Source of the DNA: Rubritepida sp.
GTDB lineage: Bacteria; Pseudomonadota; Alphaproteobacteria; Acetobacterales; Acetobacteraceae
Length of the DNA: 34,006 nt
NCBI GenBank assembly: GCA_028291455.1
Contig: JAQGHY010000044.1
Span: 1 to 34,006 of the forward strand
Direction: 5' to 3'
Positions 9,711 through 33,785 of the stretch are shown one piece after another (position 1 is the stretch's first letter; every line of letters begins with the position of its first letter). The position numbers and the translations under genes were made by a program. The notes beneath the pieces were generated by a model. It was given only the letters and a program-made list of their open reading frames with translations. It had not been told where the DNA came from and made no database searches.

Positions 9711-9711
9711 C

Positions 9712-11241
9712 ATGGCGGTGAGCGACGACGGCAGCATCCTGCTGCGCACCGCGCGCGGGGCCGGATGGGTGATTGCCTGGCGAATGGCCACGCGGCTCAT
9801 GGGCCTCGTGAGCACGCTGATCCTGGTCCGCCTGATGGCGCCGGAGGAGTTCGGACTGGTCGCCCTGGCGGCGGCCTTCGCGGTCGCGCTGGACGTGTGC
9901 CTCGCGCTCGGCGTGGAGGACCAGATCATCCGCGCCGAGGCACCGACACGCAGCCTCTACGACACCGCCTTCACGATCAACCTGCTGCGTGGCGCGGTCG
10001 TCGGCGGGCTGGTGGCGCTGTCCGCCGCTCCGGCCGCGCGGTTCTTCGGCGATCCGCAGCTGGAAGACGTGCTGTTCGCCCTCGCGATCTCGGCGCTGCT
10101 CGCCGGTCTCGCCAATATCGGCGTGGCCGACTTCCGCCGGAACCTGCAATTCCAGCGGGAGTTCATGCTGCAGATCGTGCCGCGGCTGGCGGGGATCGCC
10201 GTCACCATCGGCCTCGCCTTCCTGCTGCGAACGCATTGGGCGCTGGTGGGCGGCATCTTCGTCAACCGCTTCGGCGTCGTGGTCATGAGCTACGCGCTGC
10301 ATCCCTTCCGCGCGCGCCTCTCGCTCTCGGCCTGGAGGGAACTGGCCGGCATCTCCGCCTGGAGCTGGGCGCTCAGCTTCGCCAGCGTCTTGAAGGATCG
10401 TTCGGAAAGCCTGGTGATCGGGCGCGTCCTCGGGACCACGGCCATCGGGCACTACGCCGTCGGCCTGGAGATCGCGACCTTGCCGTCGACGGAGCTGGTG
10501 GACCCGATCTGCCGCGCCTGCATGCCCGGCTTCGCCGCCAGCCGGCGGGCCGGCGAGGATGGCGGCGGGGCCGACTACCTCCGTATCCTGGCCCTGCTGG
10601 CCATGCTGACCCTTCCGGCGGGGCTCGGCATCTCGCTCGTGGCCGCGCCGGTGGTGGCGCTGGCCTTCGGCCAGGCGTGGCTCGAAGCGGTGCCGGTCGT
10701 GATCGTGCTGGGCATCGGCAGCGTCCTAACGCCGCTGGGCAATGTGAGCGGGGCGATGCTCAATGCCCATGCGCGGCTGAGCCAGCTGCTCGGGATCAGC
10801 GTGGCCATCGCGGTGCTGCGCATCGTCCTGCTGGTGGTGCTGACGCCGGGCCTGGGCGTGACGGGCGCGGCGCTGGCCGTGACCGGAGCGGTGGTGGCCG
10901 AGCATCTTTCGACGGTGTTCTTCGCCTTCCGGCTCCTGCGCCTGCGCCTGGTCCGGCTGGGAGGCATCCTCTGGCGGCCCGCTTTGGCGGCGGGGCTGAT
11001 GACGCTCCTGCTGTGGGTGGCCGGGCTTGGCTGGGCCACCGCCCCGGCGAGCTCCGCCGCGGCGGCGCGGGAATTGGCGCCGGCGGTACTCCTTGGCGCG
11101 GGCAGCTATGCCGCGGCGCTTTTCGGCCTCTGGACCCTGGCGGGGCGTCCCCCCGGGGCCGAGGCGGACATGCTCGGGCTGCTGCACCGGGTGGCGGCGC
11201 GGCTGCGCGTGCGTATCCGCCAGAACCTGCCGGCTGGTTGA
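9712..11241 (+). CDS. Wzx-type flippase / lipopolysaccharide biosynthesis membrane protein
   Basis: A 509-residue polytopic inner-membrane protein of the MOP/polysaccharide transport family, expected to flip the lipid-linked EPS repeat across the inner membrane. The N-terminus (GAGWVIAWRMATRLMGLVSTLILVRLM followed by PEEFGLVALA) is the family hallmark. About a dozen hydrophobic segments follow, for example in the ALAISALLAGLANIG and GLGVTGAALAVTGAVVAEHL regions. The ATG at 9712 is used; the track start at 9592 reads through the asnB C-terminus. The start follows the amidotransferase TGA by 1 bp and the stop is 2 bp before the next ATG, so all three genes are probably one operon. No Wzy polymerase was recognised nearby. 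Confidence 0.88.
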   Translation: MAVSDDGSILLRTARGAGWVIAWRMATRLMGLVSTLILVRLMAPEEFGLVALAAAFAVALDVCLALGVEDQIIRAEAPTRSLYDTAFTINLLRGAVVGGLVALSAAPAARFFGDPQLEDVLFALAISALLAGLANIGVADFRRNLQFQREFMLQIVPRLAGIAVTIGLAFLLRTHWALVGGIFVNRFGVVVMSYALHPFRARLSLSAWRELAGISAWSWALSFASVLKDRSESLVIGRVLGTTAIGHYAVGLEIATLPSTELVDPICRACMPGFAASRRAGEDGGGADYLRILALLAMLTLPAGLGISLVAAPVVALAFGQAWLEAVPVVIVLGIGSVLTPLGNVSGAMLNAHARLSQLLGISVAIAVLRIVLLVVLTPGLGVTGAALAVTGAVVAEHLSTVFFAFRLLRLRLVRLGGILWRPALAAGLMTLLLWVAGLGWATAPASSAAAARELAPAVLLGAGSYAAALFGLWTLAGRPPGAEADMLGLLHRVAARLRVRIRQNLPAG

Positions 11242-11243
11242 GC

Positions 11244-12215
11244 ATGGACCTCGCTCCCATACGGACCGGAATCCGGCCGGTGGCGGTCCACGCCGACACC
11301 TGGAGCGTGGCGGTCTTCGCCCGCAATGAGGCGGCGCGCATCGGCCCCTGCCTGCGCGCGCTGTCGCGTGCCACCGGTGCGGAGCGTTTGCATGTCACGG
11401 TACTGCTGAACGGCACGCAGGACGGTTCGGACGCGACCGCGGCCGCGGCCATGCGCGAGGCCGGGCTGGCGGGCTGCCTCTACGACATTCCCTTCGGCGA
11501 CAAATCGCACGCCATCAACCTCTACCTGCACCGGCTGCGTCCCACGGCGGCGATGCATGTGCTGATGGATGGCTACGCCGAGATCTGGCCGGAGGCGCTG
11601 GCTCTGCTCGCCAGGCGGCTCGCCACCACGCCGGAGGCGCAGGCGGCGGCGGCGGTGCCCAGCACGGGCCGCAGCTCCGCCGCGCTGCGGCGTCACATGC
11701 TGGCAGCACCGGGCCTGCATGGCTCGCTGTTCGCACTGCGCGACAGCTTCGTGGAGCGGCTGACCGCTGCCGGGTACCGCCTGCCGCGCGGCCTCTACCG
11801 GGGCGATGGGCTGCTGGGCTCCATGGTCCTGCACGACCTCGATGCCCTCGGCGGCGGCTGGATCGGCTCGCGCATCGCCGTGGAAGGCGAAGCGAGCTGG
11901 TCCATTCAGCCGGGGCGCGTGTGGCGCTGGCGGGACCTGAGCCGGCACGGCCGCCGGATGCTGCAGCAGGGGCGGGGAAGGCTCGAGCGGACGGCCCTGC
12001 GCGCGGTCATCTACCGCGACGGCTTCGGGGGCCTGCCCGAGGATGCGAACCGCATGGTCCTGGACTGGATCGCGGAGGATCCGCAGGCCCATACCCCGAG
12101 GCCATGGCGGGATCCTTTTGCGCTTGCCGCCCTCGCGCGGATCCGTCAGGCCGGCCCCGGCCCTTCGGCTGAGGAGTTGGAGCCCAGGCTGCTGTTACGG
12201 ATGCCCGGCACATGA
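11244..12215 (+). CDS. GT2-like glycosyltransferase
   Basis: A 323-residue protein with the start of a GT-A fold: SVAVFARNEAARIGPCLRAL, then VTVLLNGTQDGSDAT, where the usual VDDGS element appears as LLNGTQDGS. The position of the DXD motif reads LMDGYAEIWPEAL, so the canonical second Asp is missing or displaced. The C-terminal part contains GLYRGDGLLGSMVLHDL. Family is inferred from overall pattern; activity on an EPS sugar is likely given the context, but the altered metal-binding motif leaves room for a different donor or mechanism. The start is the ATG 2 bp after the flippase stop. The 3' end overlaps the convergent acyltransferase gene by 70 bp. Confidence 0.75.
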   Translation: MDLAPIRTGIRPVAVHADTWSVAVFARNEAARIGPCLRALSRATGAERLHVTVLLNGTQDGSDATAAAAMREAGLAGCLYDIPFGDKSHAINLYLHRLRPTAAMHVLMDGYAEIWPEALALLARRLATTPEAQAAAAVPSTGRSSAALRRHMLAAPGLHGSLFALRDSFVERLTAAGYRLPRGLYRGDGLLGSMVLHDLDALGGGWIGSRIAVEGEASWSIQPGRVWRWRDLSRHGRRMLQQGRGRLERTALRAVIYRDGFGGLPEDANRMVLDWIAEDPQAHTPRPWRDPFALAALARIRQAGPGPSAEELEPRLLLRMPGT

Positions 12216-20447: not shown

Positions 20448-23400
20448 ATGACTGAACTCTCGAATCTCAAGCTTGCTTTTGAAAATGCCGGTGCAGCCAC
20501 CCTGGCATCTGGCGTCGCCACTTTCGGCCAGGTGTTCCTGCCCGGCGAACTCCTCTCGGGAACCGGACTGACCGCTGAATTCGGCGGTGCCAGCCACGAC
20601 GTCCAGCTCGACGTAAAGACCCGATACGATGACGGCTCGGTCAAGATGGCGGTGCTCTCCATCGAACGGCCCGACCTCGCGCCCGGTGCCGCGCTCGACG
20701 TCACGCTCTCCGCCGCCGCGGCAAAGCCCGCCACCGCCATCGACCTCAATCAGGCGCTCGCCAACCATTCCTTCAACGTCGACCTGACCATCCAGGGCGG
20801 CGAGCATGTCAGCGTCGATGTCCTCGCCGCACTGCACGATGCGCTGGCCGACGGGTCCGCCAGCTTCTGGCAAAAGGGCGATCTGGCCAGCCAGGCCCGC
20901 GTCGAGGTCACGCTCGAAGGTTCGCAGCGGTTGGTCTTCGACGTGACCGCCTTCAAGGACGGAGGCTTCGCCGTCGAGGCCCAGTTCAACAACGACGGCG
21001 CCATGGGTGCGACCGGCGGCCGCGTCGCCTACGACCTCGTCGTGACGATGGATGGAAAGCAGGCCGCGGCCGAGACCGTGAACCAGGGCCAGTACCAGAA
21101 CTGGCACGAGAGCTTCTCCAGCAACGCCACCGACGGCGGGCAGGGCACCGGCAGCCCCGAGGCCGGCTGGCTGAACATCCGCCAGGACATCGCCCATCTC
21201 GAGGCGACCGGCGTCGTCGCCAATTACGACCTCAGCCTGCAGATCAATCCCAACCTGCTCGCCGCCTACGCCGCCGCCACCCAGGCCGACGGCTGGGGCG
21301 ATCCGCTCGCGACCAACGGCGTGACGCAATTCATGCCTGCCACCGGAGGCCGCTCCGACATCGGCATTACGACGACCGCCAACACGTCATGGCTGATCAG
21401 CCAGGACGCGCACACCGCCGCCTATGCGCTCGGCCAGGCCGAGACGGCCAGCTCCGTGCCGTGGAACTTCTGGGATGCCAAGAACGACACCTGGCTGAAC
21501 ACCGATGCCTATCCCCAGCTCTGGACGGATTACCGCGGCGGCACCGGCAGCCCTGGTGATCCGACCTCGACCGGCCTGACGCAGCAGGTGGGAGGCGACA
21601 CCGGATGGAGCACCGATCCCGCCCATCAGCCCCAGCTCTCCTTCGTGCCCTATGTGCTGACGGGCGAGCGCTGGATGCTCGATAATCTCGAGGCGCAGGC
21701 CGCCTGGAACATCCTCGGCCAGCAGCCCTCGGTGCGCGGCGACGCCGACGACAACGTGATCAACACCAACCAGGTGCGCGGCGCCGCCTGGGCGCTGCGC
21801 GAAGTGGACGCCGCCGCCTGGGCAGCTCCCGACGGCAGCACGGAGCAGACCTTCTTCCAGCACGCCTCGGATGCCAACTACGCCTGGCTGGTCGCCCAGA
21901 TCCCCAAATGGACGGCCGAGCAGGGCGAGGCGCATGGCTGGGTTCCCGGCAGCTACGGCGCCGACGGCGCCATGCCGCCCTGGCAGCAGGACTACTTCGC
22001 CTCCACCGTGATCGCGGCGGCCGGGCGGGGAAATGCGGATGCGATGACCTTCCTGAACTGGGAGGCCAACTTCCTCGTCGGTCGCTTCACGAGCGAGGCG
22101 CAGGGCTTTCACGCCCACGACGGTGCCACCTATCTGCTCGCCATCAGCGACCCCGTGACCGGTGCCGCCCCCTACACGACCTGGGCTGAGATCGGCGCGC
22201 AGACGGAGGCGCGCGGCTGGAGCAACGGCTTGACGGGATGGGAGCACAGCCAGGGCGACTACCCCCAGCTGGCCCTGGCCACACTTGCCGGCATCTATCA
22301 CCTGACCGGCTCGGCCGAGGCCAAGGCCGCCTATGACGCGCTGATCGCCGATGCCGCGCCGTTCTCCGGCACCAGCGACTACGAGCGCGACCCGACCTTT
22401 GCCATCACGGCGCCGGATGCGTCGTCGCCGCAGACACCGGTCGTACAGGACCCGGCCCATCCCACCCCGACGCCGGACCCCACGCCGGTTCCCGACCCCA
22501 CTCCGGTGCCAACTCCCACTCCCACTCCGGTACCCTCGTCCGGTCTGACGCCGCTCGCCATCATATTGGGCGCCGACAGTTGGCAAGGCGACCCGCTGGC
22601 GGTGATCCGCGTCGACGGCCAGGGGGTGTTCCGCGGCACGATCGCCACCCAGCACGCGGCGGGCGGGCAGCGGCTCGAACTGGGCAACTTCGACGCCCAT
22701 ACCGCCCATACGGTCACGGCCGAATTCCTCAACGACGCCTGGGGCGGTACTGCGACGACGGACCGTAACCTCTACGTTGAATCGGTCCTCGTGAATGGCG
22801 TCGCCACCGGTGACCATCAGGCACTGCTCGATGGCGGAACGGCGAGCTTCGTGCTTGCGGCGGCACCTGTCGCGGTACCGACGCCGGTACCCTCATCCGG
22901 CCTGACGCCGCTTTCCATCGTACTGGGCGCCGACAGTTGGGAAGGCGACCCGCTGGCGGTGATCCGCGTCGACGGCCAGGAGGTGTTCCGCGGCACGATC
23001 GCCACCCAGCATGCGGCGGGCGGGGAGCGGCTCGAACTGGGCAGCTTCGACGCTTATACCGCCCATACCGTCACGGCCGAATTCCTCAACGACGGCTGGG
23101 GCGGTACCGCGACGACGGACCGAAACCTCTACGTGGAATCGGTCCTCGTGAATGGCGTCGCCAGCGGTGACCATCAGGCACTGCTCGAAGGCGGGACAGC
23201 GAGCTTCGTGCTTCCGGCGGCACATGTCGACGTGCCGACCCCGGCCCCCACTCCGATCCCGACCCCGACCCCGGTACCCTCGTCCGGCCTGACGCCGCTC
23301 TCCATCGTACTGGGCGCCGACAGTTGGGAAGGCGATCCGCTGGCGGTGATCCGCGTCGACGGCCAGGAGGTGTTCCGCGGCACGATCGCCACGCAGCACG

Positions 23401-24275
23401 CCGCAGGCGGGGAGCGGCTCGAACTGGGCAGCTTCGACGCCCATGCCGTTCATACCGTCACGGCCGAATTCCTCAACGACGGCTGGGGCGGTACCGCGAC
23501 GACCGATCGAAACCTCTACGTGGAATCGGTCCTCGTGAATGGCGTCGCCACTGGTGACCATCAGGCGATGCTCGAAGGCGGGACGGCGAGCTTCGTGCTT
23601 CCGGCGGCACCCGTAGAGGTGGCGCAGGATGTCCTGCGGGTCGCGATCTCGGGGGACTCCTGGCAGGGCGACGCGAGCTACCTGGTGCTGCTCGACGGCA
23701 AGCAGGTGGGCAGCGGCACGACGAGTGCCTCGCACGCGGCCGGCGCGCTGGAGTTCATCGATCTGAAGGGGGATTTCTCGACCGCCGGGCACGAGTTGAC
23801 CCTGAGCTTCCTGAACGACGCCTGGGGCGGTACGGCCACGACGGACCGCAACCTCTATCTGGACTCCCTCACCCTGAACGGCGTGGACCAGCATCACGCG
23901 GCAAGCCTCCTCAACGGCGGGGATGCGACGTTCGACTTCGGGGGTGCGCCGGCGCCAGCCGCCGGTGTCACCCCGAACGTGATGCGTGTCGCGGCGTCCG
24001 ATCAAGGCGCTTCGCCCACGGTGCTTCTTGTGGACGGCGTGCAGATGGGCGGCGCGCAGGATGCGAGCGTGCCGCAAGCCGGGGCGGCGGAGCTCCATGA
24101 GGTCAAGGGCGACGACGCGGCTGCCGCCCATTCTCTGGCGCTGCAGCTTCTGCAAGGCGACGCCGCCAGCACTGCGGCAAGCAGCAACCTCCATGCAACA
24201 CCGGAGTTCCATGGCGAGGACCAGCAGGTCCATGCGCCGCTCGTGCCTCACAGCGACGCCGTTTTCGCTTTCTGA
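20448..24275 (+). CDS. Large leaderless CBM60-repeat protein with a domain of unnamed family; putative secreted glycan-active enzyme
   Basis: A 1275-residue protein. Residues ~5-655 are a paralogue of the whole secreted protein at 1214-3259 (shared DVKTRYDDGS, GEAHGWVPGSYG, PPWQQDYFAST), possibly a RIFT barrel plus helical barrel as in PcRGLX-like lyases. A Pro-Thr linker (about 670-698) follows. Then come four Ca-dependent, xylan-binding CBM60-like repeats starting near residues 700, 819, 948 and 1062, each with DSWxGD and FLNDxWGGTATTDRNLY. A fifth copy (about 1172-1275) has lost both motifs. There is no signal peptide (MTELSNLKLAFENAG), and the C-terminus ends SDAVFAF, acidic then hydrophobic as in type I secretion signals. 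The PrtD/PrtE pair at 30365-33444 could export it. The start is supported by CGGAGA 6 bp upstream. A terminator follows. Enzymatic activity is inference. Confidence 0.8.
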   Translation: MTELSNLKLAFENAGAATLASGVATFGQVFLPGELLSGTGLTAEFGGASHDVQLDVKTRYDDGSVKMAVLSIERPDLAPGAALDVTLSAAAAKPATAIDLNQALANHSFNVDLTIQGGEHVSVDVLAALHDALADGSASFWQKGDLASQARVEVTLEGSQRLVFDVTAFKDGGFAVEAQFNNDGAMGATGGRVAYDLVVTMDGKQAAAETVNQGQYQNWHESFSSNATDGGQGTGSPEAGWLNIRQDIAHLEATGVVANYDLSLQINPNLLAAYAAATQADGWGDPLATNGVTQFMPATGGRSDIGITTTANTSWLISQDAHTAAYALGQAETASSVPWNFWDAKNDTWLNTDAYPQLWTDYRGGTGSPGDPTSTGLTQQVGGDTGWSTDPAHQPQLSFVPYVLTGERWMLDNLEAQAAWNILGQQPSVRGDADDNVINTNQVRGAAWALREVDAAAWAAPDGSTEQTFFQHASDANYAWLVAQIPKWTAEQGEAHGWVPGSYGADGAMPPWQQDYFASTVIAAAGRGNADAMTFLNWEANFLVGRFTSEAQGFHAHDGATYLLAISDPVTGAAPYTTWAEIGAQTEARGWSNGLTGWEHSQGDYPQLALATLAGIYHLTGSAEAKAAYDALIADAAPFSGTSDYERDPTFAITAPDASSPQTPVVQDPAHPTPTPDPTPVPDPTPVPTPTPTPVPSSGLTPLAIILGADSWQGDPLAVIRVDGQGVFRGTIATQHAAGGQRLELGNFDAHTAHTVTAEFLNDAWGGTATTDRNLYVESVLVNGVATGDHQALLDGGTASFVLAAAPVAVPTPVPSSGLTPLSIVLGADSWEGDPLAVIRVDGQEVFRGTIATQHAAGGERLELGSFDAYTAHTVTAEFLNDGWGGTATTDRNLYVESVLVNGVASGDHQALLEGGTASFVLPAAHVDVPTPAPTPIPTPTPVPSSGLTPLSIVLGADSWEGDPLAVIRVDGQEVFRGTIATQHAAGGERLELGSFDAHAVHTVTAEFLNDGWGGTATTDRNLYVESVLVNGVATGDHQAMLEGGTASFVLPAAPVEVAQDVLRVAISGDSWQGDASYLVLLDGKQVGSGTTSASHAAGALEFIDLKGDFSTAGHELTLSFLNDAWGGTATTDRNLYLDSLTLNGVDQHHAASLLNGGDATFDFGGAPAPAAGVTPNVMRVAASDQGASPTVLLVDGVQMGGAQDASVPQAGAAELHEVKGDDAAAAHSLALQLLQGDAASTAASSNLHATPEFHGEDQQVHAPLVPHSDAVFAF
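22545..23610 (+). repeat. Three near-identical 322-bp tandem repeats coding CBM60-like modules
   Basis: Copies at 22545-22866, 22902-23223 and 23289-23610 are each 322 bp. By eye, copies 2 and 3 differ at under 20 positions; copy 1 is slightly more diverged. They are joined by Pro-Thr linkers of 35 and 65 bp. Such identity at the DNA level, beyond protein conservation, points to recent duplication or ongoing gene conversion. The upstream linker (about 22461-22540) is itself low-complexity CCNACN sequence. A fourth copy (23631-23943) is homologous only at protein level. Confidence 0.9.
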
Positions 24276-24317: not shown

Positions 24318-24556
24318 AGACTGAGCCTCGGCACTGTATGCCGTTGAAGGTAGATTCCGCACCTCCGGACAGCCCATCGCACTCGGGTACAACCAAAGCG
24401 CGTAATGAGGGTGCGAATTGTTAGAGGGCGTCAGGGAAAGATCAGCATCCCTGAGTACTTTCCGATCCTGTCAAGATTCAGCGCATTTATGTAATTTCCT
24501 TGTACTGATCACGGCGACAGCAAACCGCAAGCCGTCATTCAACTATAAGGAAAGCC
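24318..24556. other. Intergenic region before the XRE leader
   Basis: No gene supported. It contains an inverted repeat TCAGGGA-(10)-TCCCTGA at 24431-24454 and an AT-rich stretch around 24475-24505 (CATTTATGTAATTTCC) that could hold the promoter of the XRE gene; no clean -35 was found. The 74-codon track ORF at 24418 has no recognisable features. Confidence 0.35.
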
Positions 24557-24678: not shown

Positions 24679-25167
24679 ATGCACGGCAATATCAAACCGA
24701 TTGGGCTCGATGGCCGAATGGATCTCGTCGGCATTCGCCGGGTTCCGATGGATGAGGTCGCAGGCCTCAACAATCGATCGCCGACCTCTGCCGATGCAAC
24801 CGTGGGTGGCCGCATCAAGGAGCTCCGGCGGGCCGCGGGCCATACCCAGAAGCAGGTCGCAAATCTCATCGGGGTCACCGGCGCGCAGTTTCACCGATAC
24901 GAGACCGGCGCGACACGCGTCGCCGCCAGCCGCCTCATGGCCATCGCAGCCGCGCTCGGCACCCGGCCCGAGGCGCTGATCGGCGCGATGGGCAAGGCCC
25001 AGCCGATGATCACCGCCGCTCCGCTCGACGGCGCGGCGACGGATGGGCTGGTCGAGCTGGTCGAGGTGTATGCGACCATCAGCGACCCCCGCCGGCGCCA
25101 CGCGCTCATCGCCTTCGCACGCGTCGTCGCGCGGGCGCAGGGCTCGGACGACCCTGTGGCGGACTAG
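24679..25167 (+). CDS. XRE family helix-turn-helix transcriptional regulator
   Basis: A 162-residue DNA-binding protein. A Cro/C1-type helix-turn-helix spans about residues 43-97: GGRIKELRRAAGHTQKQVAN, then LIGVTGAQFHRYETGATRVA, followed by LMAIAAALGTRPEALIG. The C-terminal ~45 residues (SDPRRRHALIAFARVVARAQ) are helical and may mediate dimerisation. The N-terminal ~40 residues are not conserved-looking. The ATG at 24679 has a good Shine-Dalgarno (GAGGAG, about 8 bp upstream), partly hidden in a hairpin. Homologues of this type are common orphan regulators in Acetobacteraceae and rhizobia. It stands between the CBM60-repeat gene and the large kinase; its targets are unknown, with autoregulation possible through the palindromes upstream. 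Confidence 0.88.
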   Translation: MHGNIKPIGLDGRMDLVGIRRVPMDEVAGLNNRSPTSADATVGGRIKELRRAAGHTQKQVANLIGVTGAQFHRYETGATRVAASRLMAIAAALGTRPEALIGAMGKAQPMITAAPLDGAATDGLVELVEVYATISDPRRRHALIAFARVVARAQGSDDPVAD

Positions 25168-25372: not shown

Positions 25373-28300
25373 CTAAACGGAGGTCATCACGATCCGTATC
25401 AACTCCGGCAGCGAGCGTGCGCCCAGCTTGGACATGATGGCGGCCCGGTGATTTTCCACCGTCCGCTGGCTCAGGTTCAGGTCGGCCGCGATGTTCTTGT
25501 TGGGCATTCCCGCGATGATGCGGTCCAGGATCTCGCGCTGGCGTTCCGTCAGATTGGCGAGCTTGGCCGCATGTTCGCTCTTGGAGGCTTGTTGCCGGGC
25601 GCCATCCGCGATGAGGGCCGTCGCCTTCTCGAGGCTGCGCAGCAGAGCGTCGCCATGGATCGGCTTTTCGATGAAGTCGATCGCCCCCGCCGACACGGCG
25701 CTCACTGCCAGGCGGATATCGCCCCGGCCGGCGATCATGATGGCGGGCAGGCGATGCGCGTTCGGGCGCAGCGCATTCAGCAGCGCCAGCCCGTCCATGC
25801 CGACGATTGCCGAATCGACCAGCACGCAGCCGCGCCGGGTCGGGGTGTCGGCATCGAGGAAGGCCCGCGCGCTGGCGAAGCTTTCGGTGGCCCAGCCCTG
25901 GCCCTCCAGCCACTCGGCGGTGGCAAGCCGCAAAGCGGCGTCGTCTTCCACGATGAAGACGTGCCCTCTCGGTCCTTCGGCGGGTGCGGTGCGGGCCCCA
26001 CGGGCATGCGGAAGCCACCGATGCACCCGGTCCAGCAGGTCCGTGGGATCTATGGGCTTGAGCAAGTGGTCGAAGCTCCGGCCGCTGATACCCTCCAGCA
26101 CCGAAGCCTCAATGTCCTCGCCGGTCAGGAGGATGGCGGCTGGCGGCCGGGCCTGGGCCTGGCCGATGCGACGGACGACATCGAGCCCGGTCATGCCATC
26201 CGACAGGTCGTGATCCGCGATGACGAGGGCGGGCGGATTTTCGAGGGCGAGGCCCATGGCCCGCATCGCGTCGGTTGCCAGCGTGGCCGCGTAGCCGTCG
26301 CGTTCCAGCAGGATGCGCAGCATTTCCCCGAGTTCCAGATCCTCCGCGATGATCAGGATGTGGCGAAGGCTTCCCTTTTCAGGCGTCACGAGCAAGGACG
26401 CGGCGGCAGGCGTGCTTGTCGGCACGTCGATGGCGAAGATCGCCTGGCCCATGGCGCGCGGCTCGACACGGATCGGATGACCCAGCAACTCGGCCAGCCG
26501 CCGCGCGACCTCCAGGCCGAGGCCAAGGGCCTCGCCGCGCTCGACGAGGGGGTGGCCCGCCTGCCGCGTGTCATCGAAGTTGGCGCGCGGCTGCGGAAGG
26601 GGAAGCTGGATCAGGATCTCGATACGCAGGAGGTCTCCCTTCCGGCGGCAACCCAGCAGGATCCTGCCCTTGGGCGTGTATCGCAGCACGGCTGAAATCA
26701 AATTGCGAAGAACCTGCCGCAGCAGCCGGATGTCGCTGATGATCATCCTTTCGCAGGGGACCATCCGCCATTGGAGGCCCCTGGCGCGCGCATGTTCGCC
26801 GAATTCCTTCTCCAGCGTGGCCAGCAGCGTGCCGATCCGAAAGGCCGAGAAGCTGGGATGGACGTTGCCGAGCTCCAGCTGCTCGCTGTCCTGCAGCGCA
26901 TCGAGGATGCCGGACATCACGGCGATGGGACTGTCGAGCCGGCCGATGTCACGGAGCACCTGCGGGTCGCTCACCGTCTCCGCCATGATCTTCTGCAGCA
27001 TGACGATGCTCTGCAGCGGCTGGCGCAGGTCATGACCCGTCGTCGTCAGCAGGCGGGACTTCTCCCGGCTGGCCCGCTCGGCCATGGCCTTGGCGGTCTC
27101 GAGCCCCGACGTGAGCATGACCCGGTCGGTGATGTCCTCCACGGCGAGGAGGGTCCGAACCGCCGGTGCGCCGCCCCTCAGGCGGCTGGCGGCGAGCCGG
27201 AGAGTCCTTCGCCCCCGGGCCGGAAGCGTCACCTCGACGACGCTGTCCTCGATCGTCTCCGGCGTGCCGTCGCGGCTGGTGAGGAAGGACGCCAGCTTCG
27301 GCACCGAGCGCAAAGCGGGTCCCACCAGCACGCGCAGCGCATTCCCGCCGAGCTCACGGTGGGCGCCGAACATCGCGCCGAAAGCTTCGTTGGCGAAGAC
27401 GACCTGCAGGTTCGCGTCCAGCACGATGAGCGGCTGGCGGATCGACTGCACGATATCGGCCGTGGCACCGAGGACGGCCTCGGCATGGCCGGTCGCCTTC
27501 TTTATTTCGGAGATATCCACATAGGTGATCACCACCCCGACGAGGCCCCTCTCGTGGTCGTTGCAGGGCTGGATGCGGCGCATGAGCCAGCTGCCGTCGG
27601 GCCCCAGCACTTCCCTGGCACTCGGCTGCAGGGTCGTGAGCACCGCCCGTGCCTCGTCCAGCAGGCTCGTGTCGCCGGCGAGCGGCGCGATATGGGCCAA
27701 GGGCCGCCCGATGTCGTTGCCGATGATCCGGAAGGGCAGGCGTTCGGAAGGGGTGTAGAAGCGGATGTTCAGCTCGGCGTCCAGAAGGAGCATCGCTACA
27801 CCGGAGCTTGCGAGGATGTTCCTCAGTTCGCCGGAGGCCTGCCGTTCGTCCTGCAGGGCGCGCCGCAGCTGTTCGTTCAGCCCGTCGAGCTCGCGGTTCA
27901 GGCTGGCCTGGTCGTCGCGGGCGGCGATCAGCTCCTCCTGGGCCGACATCGCCTCCTGGCCGTCGAGGTTGGCCTGCTGCTGCACGAAATCCAGTTCGAG
28001 CCTGAGGCTCTCCAACTCGTGCTGGAGGGCCTCGTTCTCTTTCTCCTGATCGGCGATCCGTGACCGGTCCCCCAGATCCGGCAGCTCCACGGGCGTCGCA
28101 CTGCCGGCTGCCGGCGATTCCACGAAGCTGACCAGCATCAGCCCATCATCTTCGTGCTGGACGGGTTGGACACGCAAAGTCACGAGGTCGCCGGCGGAGC
28201 CGTCGTAGGAAGGCATGATGCCGAACGACACCGTCTGGCCCGATCGCCGGGCCTCTGTGATGGCATGCGCGGCGCCGCGCCTCAGCCGCGGCACCAGGAG

Positions 28301-30007
28301 GGCCAGCAGGCGGTTCGTCGGCTCGCCGGCGGGAAGGTCGAGGAAGCGGCCGAGCGGCCCGATCGCAAAGAGCACCCGGCCGGCCGCGTCGATCAGGACG
28401 CTGGGGGGAATGAAGGCGTCGGTCGCGGCGCGGCGGGCCAGTTCGGCGACACTGCGCGGCGCCAGGAGAGAACGCCGGGTGCCCGAGGGCGGGCTGGCCG
28501 CGTCCGGTTCGGAAGGGTTGGCGGCGGTGGGCCACGGGACATTCAGGCGCCGGTAGATGCGCGGCACCGCCGAGACGGCCGTGAAGCCCTGCTCGATGAA
28601 GCGCCCGCTATCCGTGCCGTTGACGCACAGGATGCCGGAACTGTTCAGCGCGAAGTGGAAGAGCGCCAGCAGCTTCGCGCGGGCATTCGGCAGCAGATGG
28701 TTCAGCAGATCGCGGCAGACGATCATGCCTAGGCGCGAGAACGGCGGATCCTTGAACGGATTCTGTGCGCCGAACACCACCATGGCGCGCAGCCTGGGCG
28801 TCACGCGCCATCCGTCGTTTTCCTCGACGAAATATCGCGCGAGCTGTTCTCGGGGAATGTCGCGCCCGAGGTGCCGGGGATACAGGCCCGCCCGCGCATA
28901 AGCTACCGCTGCGGGGTCGATGTCCGAGGCAAAGATCTGCGGCGGGATCGTCCCCTCGACCGCAGCGAGGGCATCGGCCGCCAGCATGGCGATCGTATAG
29001 GCTTCCTCCCCCGTGCCGCATGCCGCCACCCAGATACGCAGCGGCTGCGCTGGTGTGGATGCGGCCAGCATGGGCACCAGATACTTGTCCCGCAGGGCGA
29101 GCAGCGCCTCGCTGTCCCGGAAGAAGCCCCTCATGTTGACGTGGAGGTCGTCCGCCAACGCCTGCGCCTCGCTTTCGTCCGTCTCGAGCGAGGCGAGATA
29201 GGCGGCAGGGGAGGCGGCACCGGCGATCCGCATCCGGCGCTCGATACGCCCCTGGAGCGTGCTGGGCTTGTAGCCCTCCAGGGAAAGCGGCGTCAGCCGC
29301 GCGAGGCTGGCGACGGCGCCCTTCAGCCAGGACGCCTCGGGCGCGACGGATTGGATGCCGACCCGGCTTTCTCCGGCTGCGCGCTCTGCGCACCAGGATG
29401 CCAGGGCTTCGCCGATCTCCGTCGCGGACAATACGCGGTCGGCGAGGCCGGCGGCGATCGCTCCTTCCGGGGTGCCCGATACCTCTTCCCCGTCGAAACC
29501 GGCCGCCGGCGACTGGGCGAAGACATAGCCGCCGCGTTCGCGGATTTCCCGCAGCCCTGGCCAGTTATCCGGACCAGCGCCCGACAACAGGATGGCGACG
29601 GCGCGAGAGGTTTCACTCGCCGCCAACGAGCGAAGGAAGCAGTCGAATGCTGATCCCTGCGGCGCCGGCGTCGCGGAGAAGTGCAGCACGCCGCGCTCGA
29701 GGACGGGTTGGCTGCCGGGCGGCGCGACATGCAGGTGATTGGGCCGGAGCGGAGCGCCTTCCTCCGCCACGACGACGGAGATCGGCGAGTAGTCGGCCAG
29801 AAGGCCGGCCAGCAGGCCCGGATGGAGATTGTGATGCTGGAGGATCAGGACGAATGCCAGGTTCTTGTCGGTCGGCAGGCCCGTCAGCAGGGGCAGGAAG
29901 TCTTCAAGGCTCTCCGCTCCGATGCCGACTACAGCGGCGATTTGTTCAAATCGGGGCCCATTTTCCGACCGCCCATCGGTCAATTCAGGTTTCCGCATCG
30001 AAAGCAC
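25373..30007 (-). CDS. CheB-CheR-PAS-histidine kinase-REC-REC-LuxR hybrid signalling protein
   Basis: A 1544-residue cytoplasmic sensor-regulator with no transmembrane span. CheB-like 20-205: His58 (LQHH) and Asp147 (SGAGPDN) are present, but the usual GASAGG serine loop reads GAESLEDF. CheR 225-490: GFFRDSEA, WVAACGTGEEAY. PAS-like ~530-630; coiled coil ~650-735; PAS ~730-835 and ~845-960. HisKA has His992 in TTGHDLRQPLQS. In HATPase 1080-1195 the N-box is altered (RNLISAVLRYT) and no DxGxG is seen, while ALGLGL remains. REC1 1215-1330 has Asp1265; FixJ-like REC2 1348-1455 has Asp1398. The LuxR helix-turn-helix spans 1486-1540 (LTERQREIL, LSQRTVENHRA). GTG 30007 has AGAGGG upstream; ATG 29998 is an alternative. 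With no che genes nearby, it probably links an intracellular cue directly to transcription. Confidence 0.9.
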   Translation of the reverse strand: MLSMRKPELTDGRSENGPRFEQIAAVVGIGAESLEDFLPLLTGLPTDKNLAFVLILQHHNLHPGLLAGLLADYSPISVVVAEEGAPLRPNHLHVAPPGSQPVLERGVLHFSATPAPQGSAFDCFLRSLAASETSRAVAILLSGAGPDNWPGLREIRERGGYVFAQSPAAGFDGEEVSGTPEGAIAAGLADRVLSATEIGEALASWCAERAAGESRVGIQSVAPEASWLKGAVASLARLTPLSLEGYKPSTLQGRIERRMRIAGAASPAAYLASLETDESEAQALADDLHVNMRGFFRDSEALLALRDKYLVPMLAASTPAQPLRIWVAACGTGEEAYTIAMLAADALAAVEGTIPPQIFASDIDPAAVAYARAGLYPRHLGRDIPREQLARYFVEENDGWRVTPRLRAMVVFGAQNPFKDPPFSRLGMIVCRDLLNHLLPNARAKLLALFHFALNSSGILCVNGTDSGRFIEQGFTAVSAVPRIYRRLNVPWPTAANPSEPDAASPPSGTRRSLLAPRSVAELARRAATDAFIPPSVLIDAAGRVLFAIGPLGRFLDLPAGEPTNRLLALLVPRLRRGAAHAITEARRSGQTVSFGIMPSYDGSAGDLVTLRVQPVQHEDDGLMLVSFVESPAAGSATPVELPDLGDRSRIADQEKENEALQHELESLRLELDFVQQQANLDGQEAMSAQEELIAARDDQASLNRELDGLNEQLRRALQDERQASGELRNILASSGVAMLLLDAELNIRFYTPSERLPFRIIGNDIGRPLAHIAPLAGDTSLLDEARAVLTTLQPSAREVLGPDGSWLMRRIQPCNDHERGLVGVVITYVDISEIKKATGHAEAVLGATADIVQSIRQPLIVLDANLQVVFANEAFGAMFGAHRELGGNALRVLVGPALRSVPKLASFLTSRDGTPETIEDSVVEVTLPARGRRTLRLAASRLRGGAPAVRTLLAVEDITDRVMLTSGLETAKAMAERASREKSRLLTTTGHDLRQPLQSIVMLQKIMAETVSDPQVLRDIGRLDSPIAVMSGILDALQDSEQLELGNVHPSFSAFRIGTLLATLEKEFGEHARARGLQWRMVPCERMIISDIRLLRQVLRNLISAVLRYTPKGRILLGCRRKGDLLRIEILIQLPLPQPRANFDDTRQAGHPLVERGEALGLGLEVARRLAELLGHPIRVEPRAMGQAIFAIDVPTSTPAAASLLVTPEKGSLRHILIIAEDLELGEMLRILLERDGYAATLATDAMRAMGLALENPPALVIADHDLSDGMTGLDVVRRIGQAQARPPAAILLTGEDIEASVLEGISGRSFDHLLKPIDPTDLLDRVHRWLPHARGARTAPAEGPRGHVFIVEDDAALRLATAEWLEGQGWATESFASARAFLDADTPTRRGCVLVDSAIVGMDGLALLNALRPNAHRLPAIMIAGRGDIRLAVSAVSAGAIDFIEKPIHGDALLRSLEKATALIADGARQQASKSEHAAKLANLTERQREILDRIIAGMPNKNIAADLNLSQRTVENHRAAIMSKLGARSLPELIRIVMTSV

Positions 30008-30180
30008 CCCAGCACCCTCTTGTGATCCTCCGATAACGGCTCGCCGAAACAGCAGAGAGCCAAATTAGTTCCAAATAATAAAGGAAAAAATATGAAAATG
30101 TCCCTAAGACAGTCCGTTGGGTCGTATTAAAATGACAAAAATGCGCTGTAGTTCAAAACCATTATTTTACTGTAGCCACT

Positions 30181-30285
30181 ATGACCAGAACGCAAAAGGA
30201 TTCGTCCCGGCTAAGATGCCTGGTCGTTTTGGGTTGTATCGTATGTAGCGCGGCCGCCGTGCCCGCTGGAGATCCTCCTCCCTAA
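30181..30285 (+). CDS. Possible 34-aa secreted peptide
   Basis: Too short for the ORF track. ATG at 30181 opens MTRTQKDSSRLRCLVVLG, continues CIVCSAAAVPAGDPPP and stops at TAA. Basic residues, a hydrophobic core and an AxA-like VPAG site resemble a signal peptide, and VLGC is a weak lipobox. No Shine-Dalgarno is visible before the ATG, and nothing comparable is recognised. The frame may be chance in an intergenic region. Confidence 0.2.
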   Translation: MTRTQKDSSRLRCLVVLGCIVCSAAAVPAGDPPP

Positions 30286-30310
30286 CTTCGCTCATCCTCG
30301 CAGGCACGCC

Positions 30311-30341
30311 GAAAACCGGCCCGCCGCGAAGCGAGCCGGTT
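30311..30341 (-). terminator. Rho-independent terminator of the type I secretion operon
   Basis: Read on the minus strand, AACCGGC-(14)-GCCGGTT forms a 7-bp stem, with a smaller GC hairpin possible in the loop. It is followed by further Ts (GCCGGTTTTC). It lies 24-54 bp after the stop of the membrane fusion protein gene. Confidence 0.6.
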
Positions 30342-30364
30342 CCCGCCGGACATGGCAGCCTCAG

Positions 30365-31720
30365 CTATTGCTCGTGGAACGCCCGGGCCAGGCTGTCCTT
30401 CAAAGGCTGCATCAGGTAGCGCCAGAAACTACGCTGGCCGATCTGGACATGTCCCTCCACCGGCATGCCGGCGACGAGCACGACATCGGGCAGGGCCGCC
30501 AGCTGGTCCTCGTCGATCCGGATATGGGCGCGGAAGTAGGGCGGGCGGCCTTGCGGCTCGGTCGTCACGTCGGCGGCGACGAAGGTCACATGCCCGTGCA
30601 AAACCGGGATGAGCCGCTGGCGGAAGGCCGGCAGCCTGACCTCCGCGGGCAGACCCATATGGACCACATCGATGTCAGCGGGCTGGATGTTCACCTCGGC
30701 CACCAGCCGGTCCTGCACCGGAACCAGATCCATCGCCGGATCGCCGGCGCGGATGACGGCTCCCACGGTGAACTGGCGGAGATTGAGGATGGTGCCGGCC
30801 TCGGGCGCCACCATCTCCCGCCGCGCGGAGATATCGGCCGCGGCGCGCATGCGCTCCTCGGTATCGGCCAGCTTGCCCGCGACGTCGCGGGCTTCGGTGC
30901 CGATTTCCTGCTGCCGCTGGTCCCGCGCCTGGGCGATGCCGTTGCGCGCCTCGGCGATGGCGCCGTTCGCCCGCTGCACCTGCCCCTGCAGATCCAGCGC
31001 CTGCCCATCGAGCCCGGCCAGGGCGCGCTGCAGGGCCAGCAGCTCCGGCACGCGGGCGAGGCCCTGGCGCACGAGACCGCTGCGCATCACCTCCTCCTGC
31101 CGCATGAGCTCGCGCTGGCGGCGTGTCGCCTCCAACTGTCCCTCGGCGCCGGAGATCACCGCCTGCTGCTGCGTCACGCGGGATTCCAGCACGAGAAACT
31201 GACTGGCGAGGTTCGCGGCGCGGGCCTCGAACAAGGCGCGCTGGCCGGTCATCGCCTCCTGCGCGCGGATGTTGTCCGATGCCGTCATCTCCGCGGGGAA
31301 GGCGACGGCGGCGGCGCGCATCGTCTCGGCGTCTAGCCGGGCCATCTGCGCCATCAGCCCGAAGCGTTGCGCGCGCAGCCCTTCGAGGGTCGCGCCGGAC
31401 TGCACGTCGTCGAGCCGCATGACCACCTGGCCAGCCTCGACCCGAGAGCCGTCGCGCACCAGGATCTCTCGGATGATGCCGCCTTCGAGGTGGGACAGCG
31501 TGCGGCGCGTGCCCTCGACCTTGATCACGCCAGGCGCGATCGCGGCCTCCGCCAGCGGGGCCAGGACGGCCCAGCTCATGAAGCCGCCGAAGAAGCCGAT
31601 CATCACGACCAGCCCGCCCACGACCAGGCCGCCGGTGCGGGGCCGCTGCGCATCCAGCATCGGGTTGAAGGTCAGGCCGATGGCCGGCCGATGGTTCATG
31701 TTCTCGAGCCTGGTGCTCAT
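30365..31720 (-). CDS. Type I secretion membrane fusion protein, HlyD/PrtE family
   Basis: A 451-residue periplasmic adaptor linking the ABC exporter to an outer-membrane TolC-like channel. A short cytoplasmic N-terminus is followed by one transmembrane span (GGLVVGGLVVMIGFFGGFMSW, about 31-52). The first half-lipoyl/barrel segment is GVIKVEGTRRTLSHLEGGII. A long coiled-coil region (about 100-300, rich in Ala, Gln, Arg and Glu) follows, then EAGTILNLRQFTVGAVIRAGDP and the C-terminal barrel with VRLPAFRQRLIPVLHG. The length is normal for the family. The ATG at 31720 overlaps the exporter stop (ATGA) and has a consensus AGGAGG 7 bp upstream. No TolC gene is in the window. A possible substrate is the leaderless CBM60 protein at 20448-24275. 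Confidence 0.92.
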   Translation of the reverse strand: MSTRLENMNHRPAIGLTFNPMLDAQRPRTGGLVVGGLVVMIGFFGGFMSWAVLAPLAEAAIAPGVIKVEGTRRTLSHLEGGIIREILVRDGSRVEAGQVVMRLDDVQSGATLEGLRAQRFGLMAQMARLDAETMRAAAVAFPAEMTASDNIRAQEAMTGQRALFEARAANLASQFLVLESRVTQQQAVISGAEGQLEATRRQRELMRQEEVMRSGLVRQGLARVPELLALQRALAGLDGQALDLQGQVQRANGAIAEARNGIAQARDQRQQEIGTEARDVAGKLADTEERMRAAADISARREMVAPEAGTILNLRQFTVGAVIRAGDPAMDLVPVQDRLVAEVNIQPADIDVVHMGLPAEVRLPAFRQRLIPVLHGHVTFVAADVTTEPQGRPPYFRAHIRIDEDQLAALPDVVLVAGMPVEGHVQIGQRSFWRYLMQPLKDSLARAFHEQ

Positions 31721-33444
31721 CGTGCATCCTCCTTCGCGGGAGCTATCAACGGTGCTTGCGATGGCGGCGCGAGCAGGCGGCGCATCACTTCTTCGCGCGG
31801 GCCGAGGATCGAGACAGCCCCGCCCTTCAGCAGCAGGACCTTGTCCACCCCCTGCACCAGCGCGGGCCGGTGCGAGACGAGGATCACGGTCACGGCACGC
31901 AGCTTGAGTTCGTCCAGCGCATGGCCCAGCGCCATCTCGCCGTCGCGGTCAAGGCTGGAGCTGGGCTCGTCCAGCACGACCAGCTTGGGGTTGCCGAACA
32001 GGGCGCGTGCCAGCCCGATCATCTGCCGCTGCCCCCCCGAGAGATGGGTTCCGCCGTCGCCGATCTCGGTGTCGTAGCCGTCCGGCAGGCCCAGGATCAT
32101 CTCATGGCAACCGGCGATGCCGGCGGCCTCGAACACCGCCTCGGGTTCGGCCTCGCCCATGCGGGCGATGTTGCGGAAGACCGTGCCCTCGAAGAGCTCC
32201 ACATCCTGCGGCAGATAGCCGACATGGCGGCCGAAATCCTCACGCTGCCAGAGGAAGACATCCGCGCCGTCCAGCCGGACATTCCCCGCCGAGGGCTGCG
32301 CCACGCCGATCAGCAGGCGGATCAGCGTGGTCTTGCCGGCGGCGGAGGGGCCGATGATGGCGAGGGATTCGCCGGCCGCGAGGGTGAAGCTCACCCCCTT
32401 CACCGCGGCTTCGTTGCGTCCGGGGAAGACGAAGGAAACGCGATCCGCCGCCAGCTTCCCGGTGGGATCGGGCAGGCGCATGCCCTCGGGCCGCAGGCGC
32501 GGCAGGCCGAGGAAGGCCTGCAGGCGGCGGTAGGATTGCCGGGCCTGGACGAGTTGCTTCCACGAACCGATGAGCTGCTCCACTGGGGCCAGGGCGCGCC
32601 CCATGATGATGGATGCCGCGATGGAGGCGCCGGCCGTCAGCTCCTGCTGCAGCACCAGCCAGGCGCCGATGCCGAGGATTCCGATCTGGATCGCGAGGCG
32701 GCTGAATCGCGTCGTCCCCACGATCCAGCCCGCCCGGTCCGCCGCGCGGGACTGGGGAGGCAGCATCCGGGCCACGCCCTCCCGCCAGCGCATCAGCACC
32801 GCGGGCAGCATGCCCATGCTGTCGATGACCTCGGCGTTGCGGCCGATCGCGTCGGCCCGGCGCTGGCTGGCCATGGCGGCGGTATTGGCCTCGCGCAGGA
32901 ATTTCGCGGTCACGGCCTCGTTGAGCAGGGTCAGCGCCAGCAGCAGGACCGCGCCGCCCAGCGCGATGGCGCCCAGGATCGGATGCAGCAGGAAGATCAC
33001 CGCCAGGTAGACCGGCACCCAGGGCACGTCATAGACGGCGAGCATGCCGGGCGAGCCCAGGTAGCCGCGCGTGACGGCCAGATCGCGGAGCGCCTCCATC
33101 CGGTAGGGGCGGCCGCGGAGCTGGGCTTCCAATGCACGGGCAAAGCCCTCGGGCGCCACCCGGTGCTCCACCCAGCTCGCGACACGCTGCATGATGGCGG
33201 ATCGGATCGCATCCAGGACCGCGAAGATCAGGATGGCGAAGATGGCGATCAGCGTGAGGTAGAGCAGGGTGTCCGTGTTGCGGGTGGTGAGCACCCGGTC
33301 GAAGACCTGCATCATATAGAGCGACACGGTGAGCTGCAGCAGGTTCGCCACGCCCGAGAAGGTGCCGACCAGCAGGAACAGCCCGCGGCAAGACGCGAGG
33401 GCGCGCGCGAGCACGGTGTCGTTGGGGGTATTGGGATTTCGCAT
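31717..33444 (-). CDS. Type I secretion ABC exporter, PrtD family
   Basis: A 575-residue half-transporter that dimerises in the inner membrane and drives one-step export. The membrane domain (about 20-300) has hydrophobic segments such as TLLYLTLIAIFAILIFAVLDAI and VYLAVIFLLHPILGAIALGG, plus the PrtD-type YDVPWVPVYLA. The ATPase domain has Walker A GPSAAGKTT (365-373), signature LSGGQRQ (468-474), Walker B LVVLDEP (488-494) and switch His525 (LVSHR). No C39 peptidase or C39-like domain precedes it, as expected for PrtD. The track start (33591) adds 49 low-quality residues; ATG 33444 (MRNPNTPND) gives the usual PrtD length, although its ribosome binding site is weak. It overlaps the membrane fusion gene by ATGA. 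Confidence 0.92.
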   Translation of the reverse strand: MRNPNTPNDTVLARALASCRGLFLLVGTFSGVANLLQLTVSLYMMQVFDRVLTTRNTDTLLYLTLIAIFAILIFAVLDAIRSAIMQRVASWVEHRVAPEGFARALEAQLRGRPYRMEALRDLAVTRGYLGSPGMLAVYDVPWVPVYLAVIFLLHPILGAIALGGAVLLLALTLLNEAVTAKFLREANTAAMASQRRADAIGRNAEVIDSMGMLPAVLMRWREGVARMLPPQSRAADRAGWIVGTTRFSRLAIQIGILGIGAWLVLQQELTAGASIAASIIMGRALAPVEQLIGSWKQLVQARQSYRRLQAFLGLPRLRPEGMRLPDPTGKLAADRVSFVFPGRNEAAVKGVSFTLAAGESLAIIGPSAAGKTTLIRLLIGVAQPSAGNVRLDGADVFLWQREDFGRHVGYLPQDVELFEGTVFRNIARMGEAEPEAVFEAAGIAGCHEMILGLPDGYDTEIGDGGTHLSGGQRQMIGLARALFGNPKLVVLDEPSSSLDRDGEMALGHALDELKLRAVTVILVSHRPALVQGVDKVLLLKGGAVSILGPREEVMRRLLAPPSQAPLIAPAKEDAR

Positions 33445-33785
33445 ACGGTCATGGCCGGGACGGGCGTTCGCCCGCGTCCAGCATCTCTCCAAGCTGCATC
33501 CGGGCGCGAAGCACGGCTGTGGATCAGGGCGGCCGTCTGGTCTCCAGCGCGATCTGATTGGCTGGAAACCGTCGTCCGAACCTTCGTCCACGCCGCGCCT
33601 GGCGACCGAGGGGGGTGCGAGGGGATCGCTCCGCCGGGTTCAAGTCCGGGCTGGTTTCCGGCTCAATCACGGAGAACGCAAGAATAACGGGGCAGGATTC
33701 TGAGGAACTTTACAACTTCGCGCGACGAAAAAGGGCCGGCACGCAGATGCGCGCCGGCCCCCTTAGGATGCCGATGAACCAGAAA
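33445..33785. other. 341-bp intergenic region between the PEP-CTERM gene and prtD-like gene
   Basis: No gene seen. The promoter for the secretion operon is expected here on the minus strand, but no clear -35/-10 or sigma-54 site was recognised. The right end holds the PEP-CTERM gene terminator. A GGGTTCAAGTCC stretch near 33636 resembles a tRNA T-arm but has no matching tRNA around it. Confidence 0.4.
33728..33760 (-). terminator. Rho-independent terminator of the PEP-CTERM gene
   Basis: On the minus strand GGGCCGGC-(12)-GCCGGCCC forms a perfect 8-bp stem followed directly by TTTTT. It ends about 25 bp after the PEP-CTERM stop. This is the most canonical terminator in the window. Confidence 0.85.

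Follow-up and report, generated by a model that had tools for sequence, protein, structure and literature searches.

A decayed CheB-CheR-PAS-kinase-receiver-LuxR chain as a putative kinase-independent transcription factor at an EPS and type I secretion locus in Roseococcus and Rubritepida

Background

When the modules of receptor modification, phosphorelay and DNA binding are joined in one protein chain, it is natural to ask which of them still work and what the chain controls. Such a chain of 1544 aa is encoded on the minus strand (25373..30007) of a stretch of Rubritepida DNA of 34,006 nt, hereafter the window, in the order CheB-CheR-coiled coil-PAS-PAS-HK-REC-REC-LuxR HTH. As related cases, a survey mentions a CheB-CheR hybrid (PMC2890560), and kinases with CheB and methyltransferase input domains are described in Azospirillum (PMC4618731). 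No functional study of the CheB-CheR-PAS-HK-REC-REC-LuxR architecture was found in the literature within our search, in which subscription journals were mostly not covered.

Anatomy of the regulator and its locus

The reading frame of the regulator opens with GTG and contains no internal stop. Along the chain, all on the minus strand, Pfam places CheB at residues 26-202 (E 8e-28; 29402..29932), CheR_N at 236-278 and CheR at 294-465 (1.6e-36), the last two making up a CheR-like domain at 236-465 (28613..29302). A putative coiled-coil linker, judged from sequence, covers residues 641-727 (27827..28087), and is followed by PAS_10 at 728-832 (27512..27826) and by a second PAS, matched as PAS_4, at 855-963 (27119..27445), which is missing in most intact relatives and also occurs in L080 and L099-L104. 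The kinase part has a HisKA-like dimerisation region (26858..27094) and a HATPase_c-like region (26420..26734), the latter scoring 25.3 bits at residues 1092-1196, slightly below the Pfam cut-off of 26.4. Response_reg is matched twice, at about 1216-1330 (receiver 1, 26012..26362) and 1350-1459 (receiver 2, FixJ-like, 25631..25960), and a LuxR/GerE helix-turn-helix closes the chain at 1485-1539 (5.9e-19; 25391..25555), where the segment SQRTVENHRA is invariant across 48 aligned proteins. The search over the full protein thus upholds the domain order and coordinates that the initial annotation had read from the letters. Moreover, no transmembrane-like stretch is found in the protein, the highest 19-residue hydropathy being 1.65, and no che gene lies within the window, both as claimed there. 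The chemotaxis system is located elsewhere, since this genome has MCP genes on other contigs.

A frameshift or an assembly error joining two genes was named from the start as what would undo this picture. In fact orthologous chains of 1444-1469 aa are found at the same locus in three independent assemblies, two of them from isolates, so the gene is no fusion artefact and this candidate is rejected.

The architecture is not rare either. Regulator matches at E<=1e-120 are present in 36 of 200 genomes of the family, and chains of about 1420-1590 aa with the same architecture occur in several of its genera. A contig scan with the C-terminal alignment of the clade returned 418 relatives, the best 80 of which are mostly Alphaproteobacteria; the same scan with the single window protein as query returned none. 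In PLSDB, 21 plasmid records match at one place over at least 80% of the query, with 'chemotaxis protein CheB' as the usual annotation. A unique architecture is ruled out by these three sets; the architecture by itself is ordinary, and it is the decay described below that is the unusual part. Among the matches listed, the closest are from Roseococcus pinisoli, Roseococcus sp. SYP-B2431 and Rubritepida sp. RYN_446. As a separate observation, receiver 1 is the last module of one genus relative (L046:7836-11483), so that receiver 2 and the HTH are missing; the genome concerned, G006, contains no close match of the DNA box treated further on.

The regulator is surrounded by glycosyltransferase and type I secretion genes and by genes for an XRE regulator and a CBM60-repeat protein. 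On the plus strand lie a syntenic protein of 1275 aa with four CBM60 carbohydrate-binding modules (20448..24275) and the XRE-family regulator (24679..25167); on the minus strand, co-directional with the regulator and upstream of it, lies the HlyD-family membrane-fusion protein (30365..31720), followed by the PrtD-type ABC permease/ATPase (31717..33591). R. pinisoli and SYP-B2431 have the order of EPS glycosyltransferases, CBM60 protein, XRE and convergent regulator, preceded by HlyD and the PrtD-type ABC protein, and the shorter Rubritepida contig agrees in the part that it covers. The locus of L080 has the same order with the secretion genes absent, while L045, of the same genus, carries an intact-type regulator in a rearranged cluster. 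Besides, a long amino-terminal domain with only a marginal Pfam match is common to the proteins of the frames at 1214-3259 and 20448-24275 (44-48% between loci), and one of them adds the four CBM60 modules to it. The frame at 9592-11241 encodes a hydrophobic protein of 549 aa that probably serves the EPS cluster as polysaccharide flippase, and the longer ORF overlapping it (9765-12215) looks like a wrong frame.

Loss of catalytic and switch residues

With three orthologs from Roseococcus and Rubritepida, the window protein makes up a set of four decayed proteins, which we compared with the rest of the family by a residue census on the alignment and by motif search. The N-box Asn of the kinase is present in 91 of 91 other members and in none of the four (A/V/V/V, Ala1106 in the window); the G1 Asp is likewise universal among the 91 and gone from all four, being deleted in the window, which lacks the G1 DxGxG and retains GLGL. 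The phospho-acceptor His, found in 90/91 others, is kept as His992 in the window and replaced by Gln in the three orthologs. In receiver 1 the Asp and the Lys are each present in 91/91; the Lys is lost in three orthologs and the Asp in two, while the window retains D1265, T1295 and K1317 with an acidic pair reduced to A1221/E1222. In receiver 2 the Thr/Ser of 91/91 other members is Ala in 4/4 decayed proteins (Ala1426 in the window). Of the five receiver active-site residues of FixJ/NarL proteins, receiver 2 of the window therefore has four, with E1354/D1355, D1398 and K1448 kept.

The amino-terminal modules show the same tendency. Of the other full-length proteins, 76 of 78 have both the CheB and the CheR motifs intact, against 0/4 of the decayed clade. 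An active CheB has the GASxGG serine motif with its His and Asp; the motif is missing from all four, and the window reads GAES with His58 and Asp147 in place. An active CheR combines SAM-binding residues with CRNxxxY; the Asn and Tyr are replaced in the four proteins, and the window has CRDLLNH for CRNLLIY (Asn433 to Asp, Tyr437 to His) with the SAM-site Glu/Asp retained. As to class, the kinase homology and the loss of essential catalytic residues place the kinase part, judged by residues, among the putative pseudo-histidine kinases. Pseudo-receiver losses are clear in L097 and L096, and the window is short of one receiver-1 acidic residue and of the receiver-2 Thr. Of the four, the window protein has on the whole decayed least, retaining the kinase His, the receiver-1 D/T/K, the receiver-2 D/K and the CheB His/Asp. 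Apart from this clade, a distant relative of another genus with the full architecture (L048:8875-13347) shows an independent, partial loss: its CheB lacks the serine motif, and Arg stands at the position of the kinase His.

These losses suggest that the kinase, CheB and CheR modules of the window protein have lost catalysis. Accordingly the proposed union of receptor-modification chemistry, phosphorelay and transcription finds poor support here, given the losses at the N-box, G1, CheB, CheR and receiver-2 positions; it would suit the intact relatives better. One might still regard the chain as a working though atypical multi-enzyme kinase, in which the missing residues are tolerated or replaced, as the window keeps His992, GLGL and the CheR SAM-site residues and its HATPase_c match lies only slightly under the cut-off. 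This is very improbable, for the two positions invariant in 91 relatives are lost in 4/4, the His is missing in three orthologs and the CheB motif in every one.

The folds themselves appear to be retained despite the lost catalytic residues, as far as two structure models tell. Their mean pLDDT is 86 and 82, with pTM of 0.42 and 0.46, so that domain packing is uncertain, and residues 1140-1157, at the expected position of the ATP lid, are predicted with low confidence. The N-terminal model matches the CheR and CheB folds, and the C-terminal model matches FixJ (TM 0.85 to full-length FixJ), NifL, ShkA and DivL. Together with Pfam and a FixJ model, which gives the last 195 residues 218 bits under a cut-off of 255, this identifies in the carboxyl end the REC plus LuxR HTH fold of FixJ/NarL regulators. 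The 'complete FixJ-like regulator' seen there by the initial annotation holds for the fold and the HTH and breaks down at the switch residues, where the receiver-2 Thr has become Ala.

As none of the four decayed proteins has lost the receiver-2 Asp, another kinase or acetyl phosphate might conceivably phosphorylate it, and the protein would then be a conventional FixJ-like regulator with a dead amino-terminal half. The Lys and acidic pair kept in the window, the FixJ model score and the FixJ fold agree with this. We consider it unlikely, as the switch Thr is Ala in 4/4, and R. pinisoli (L097), with Asn/Ser at the acidic pair and Arg for Lys, should not be phosphorylatable.

Evolution and selection within the clade

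The four decayed proteins form one clade in the tree with support 100 and a stem branch of 0.87. Their sister L080, from another genus, has the kinase and receivers intact and lacks CheB and CheR. Identity within the clade varies by domain, from 36% in CheB and 38% in CheR through about 60% in the PAS domains (60-61% for PAS_10) to 86% in the HTH; the coiled coil is the least conserved, with 34% aa identity and no codon-position signal. In all regulator domains except the coiled coil, codon positions 1 and 2 are better conserved than position 3, and therefore the regulator protein is under selection. Moreover, the neighbouring HlyD, ABC and XRE proteins are about 70-80% identical among orthologs against about 50% for the regulator, which means that the fast change is a trait of the regulator and not of the locus.

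Such a pattern could be that of a pseudogene-like relic, whose REC2-HTH end alone is useful and whose remainder drifts. The low conservation of CheB, CheR and coiled coil, the long stem branch and the absence of CheB and CheR from L080 go in this direction; however, a frame of 1444-1544 codons has stayed open in four species, the codon-position signal extends even to CheB and CheR, and the PAS domains are about 60% identical, all of which makes a relic quite improbable.

A DNA box associated with the regulator

The intergenic region between the CBM60 and XRE genes was aligned across the four genomes, and this footprinting yielded a conserved 21-bp block with the consensus TGAGTA-NW-TTCCGA-N2-CTG. 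The block occurs once in the window with no further close match in the genome, and the same block is also found at the loci of intact relatives. Its halves form an imperfect palindrome around a centre of 2 bp, which would fit a dimer of the NarL/FixJ type. The FixJ site of S. meliloti, GTAMGTAG, was tried as an operator as well, and the intergenic regions contain no exact copy of it.

The box accompanies the regulator across genomes. Searching from -500 to +150 of the open frame with at most three mismatches, and with the reversed pattern as control, we found that 55 of 75 intact full-length regulators are preceded by a box (control 0/75), with an orientation of 52 versus 3 facing away from the regulator. 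The exact core is present in 38 of 200 family genomes (reversed control 0), namely in 23/36 regulator-positive genomes versus 15/164 others (p=1.3e-11). Among those 15 box-positive 'other' genomes, 4 proved to carry an HTH-bearing regulator against 0/15 box-negative controls, which strengthens the co-occurrence. Within the genus, each of the four genomes with a decayed regulator has one exact box, between the CBM60 and XRE genes, and the 17 others have none.

In the window the block stands in a triple arrangement on the plus strand. Box 1 (24347..24367) has its core GTAGATTCC at 24350 and scores 13 bits by PWM; box 2 (24452..24472), TGAGTACTTTCCGATCCTGTC, reaches 28.5 bits and is the sole strong site in the window; box 3 (24491..24499) has the core GTAATTTCC. 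The GTANWTTCC cores at 24350, 24455 and 24491 are the only ones in the 34 kb. The spacing of 105 and 36 bp is identical in four genomes, where some outer boxes have one mismatch; L080 and L045 have the central box only. Across the four genomes, 31 of 39 box columns are identical versus 16 of 121 spacer columns (p=3e-14), and the alignment is free of indels. A distance of 105 bp corresponds to ten helical turns, and cooperative binding may take place here. Boxes 1 and 2 enclose a further block conserved in the four genomes, TACAACC-N3-GCGCG (24388-24402), which does not represent a regulator box.

The distance from the boxes to the annotated XRE start is about 180-330 bp, and the XRE gene downstream is the likely target of this predicted triple operator. 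The regulator thus has its box nearby, yet not before its own gene: its upstream region, which could not be aligned for footprinting, has none, and neither do the secretion genes of the locus. That region (30008-30364) is AT-rich, with 52% GC against about 68% around it. As for second targets within the clade, the two-mismatch matches that genomes G012 and G001 have in common fall within a nuoA-like coding frame and are for this reason probably chance; they were discarded.

It could be argued that the boxes serve another regulator, such as the XRE protein or a stand-alone LuxR protein, so that their link to the window protein is indirect, since they face the XRE gene and, at the thresholds applied, 11 of the 38 genomes with a box lack a full-length HTH-bearing regulator. 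This is distinctly unlikely, because few of the 55 intact loci with a box beside the regulator are known to have an XRE gene; moreover the box follows the HTH-bearing form, and genomes with HTH-less CheB-CheR/kinase forms alone (G006, G031, G068 and G070) have no box. That this HTH binds the box is what such co-occurrence suggests.

Among the relatives, 320 strong boxes are found in 1.8 Mb around the regulators of L041-L175 (e.g. L133, L145, L165 and L110), and probably mark an uncharacterised stress regulon. With ORFs called mechanically, the genes downstream of strong boxes encode Dps-like ferritin, receivers, PRC-barrel, OmpA, glycine-zipper, CsbD, BON and Ysc84 proteins and an EcfG-like sigma factor. 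This gene content suggests a general or envelope stress role for the intact family, and the box offers the first testable regulon for a large family often annotated merely as 'chemotaxis protein CheB'.

A proposed mechanism

The architecture, the residue losses, the monophyly, the selection, the synteny, and the conservation and association of the box are established from the compared sequences. On these grounds the decayed regulator is probably, though far from certainly, a kinase-independent transcription factor that derives from a stress-type regulator and acts on its own EPS and type I secretion locus. Its ancestry would lie in the soluble CheB-CheR-PAS-kinase-receiver-receiver-LuxR regulators, a family widespread among Alphaproteobacteria, in whose intact members the signal presumably passes from kinase to receivers to HTH, and the HTH would bind the box before stress and envelope genes and beside the regulator's own gene. 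Within the clade of Roseococcus and Rubritepida, decay would have reached the ATP site of the kinase, the receiver switch and the catalytic motifs of CheB and CheR while the chain stayed fused, leaving a transcription factor with no need of its own phosphorylation. Since key active-site residues are lost and yet the HTH and the spaced boxes are conserved, the gene switch is probably free of chemistry of its own. The PAS domains, with a presumed sensing role, and the dead modules may then serve as a sensing and dimerising scaffold, and the HTH would bind the triple operator before the XRE gene (24347-24499) and thereby control the EPS/CBM60/type I secretion locus locally.

More tentatively, and somewhat short of an even chance, a phosphorelay regulator may here have turned phosphorylation-independent within one genus and one chain, its phosphorylation-driven dimerisation being replaced by multi-site binding at the 105/36-bp triple operator, and its stress regulon having shrunk to one local target. 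The graded series of intact relatives, the CheB/CheR-less sister L080 and four decayed proteins with a predicted operator makes the step from phosphorylation-dependent to independent control directly testable, and two of the decayed orthologs come from isolated strains.

Comparison with known systems

The nearest systems are the intact alphaproteobacterial proteins, for example those of Methylocystis sp. MJC1 (NZ_CP107559.1) and Acidiphilium cryptum (NC_009467.1), which share the full-length domain order at 34-43% identity, the HTH recognition segment and the DNA box. They differ in retaining the HK, receiver, CheB and CheR motifs and in having mostly one PAS, and their boxes often stand at several stress-type genes per genome, versus one locus in the decayed clade. 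With FixJ/NarL regulators (FixJ, 5xso/5xt2) the likeness lies in the REC2-HTH fold, at 38% identity and with a LuxR HTH, whereas in the window this domain sits in a chain of 1544 aa and has Ala for the switch Thr. NifL and DivL (9qq6, 4q20), which signal via protein contact and not by normal kinase output, resemble the window protein in the PAS and kinase-like core; they act on a separate partner, however, while the window protein carries a DNA-binding domain of its own. Finally, the pseudo-receivers and pseudo-histidine kinases such as ChxR, HP1043 and ShkA REC1 keep the fold without the phosphotransfer residues, and some are phosphorylation-independent transcription factors (PMC12632262). 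How pseudo-receivers switch is described there as an open question, and pseudo-histidine kinases have barely been considered yet (PMC12632262). Those cases have one dead module each (PMC12632262), whereas in the chain of the window the kinase, receiver, CheB and CheR are all missing key residues.
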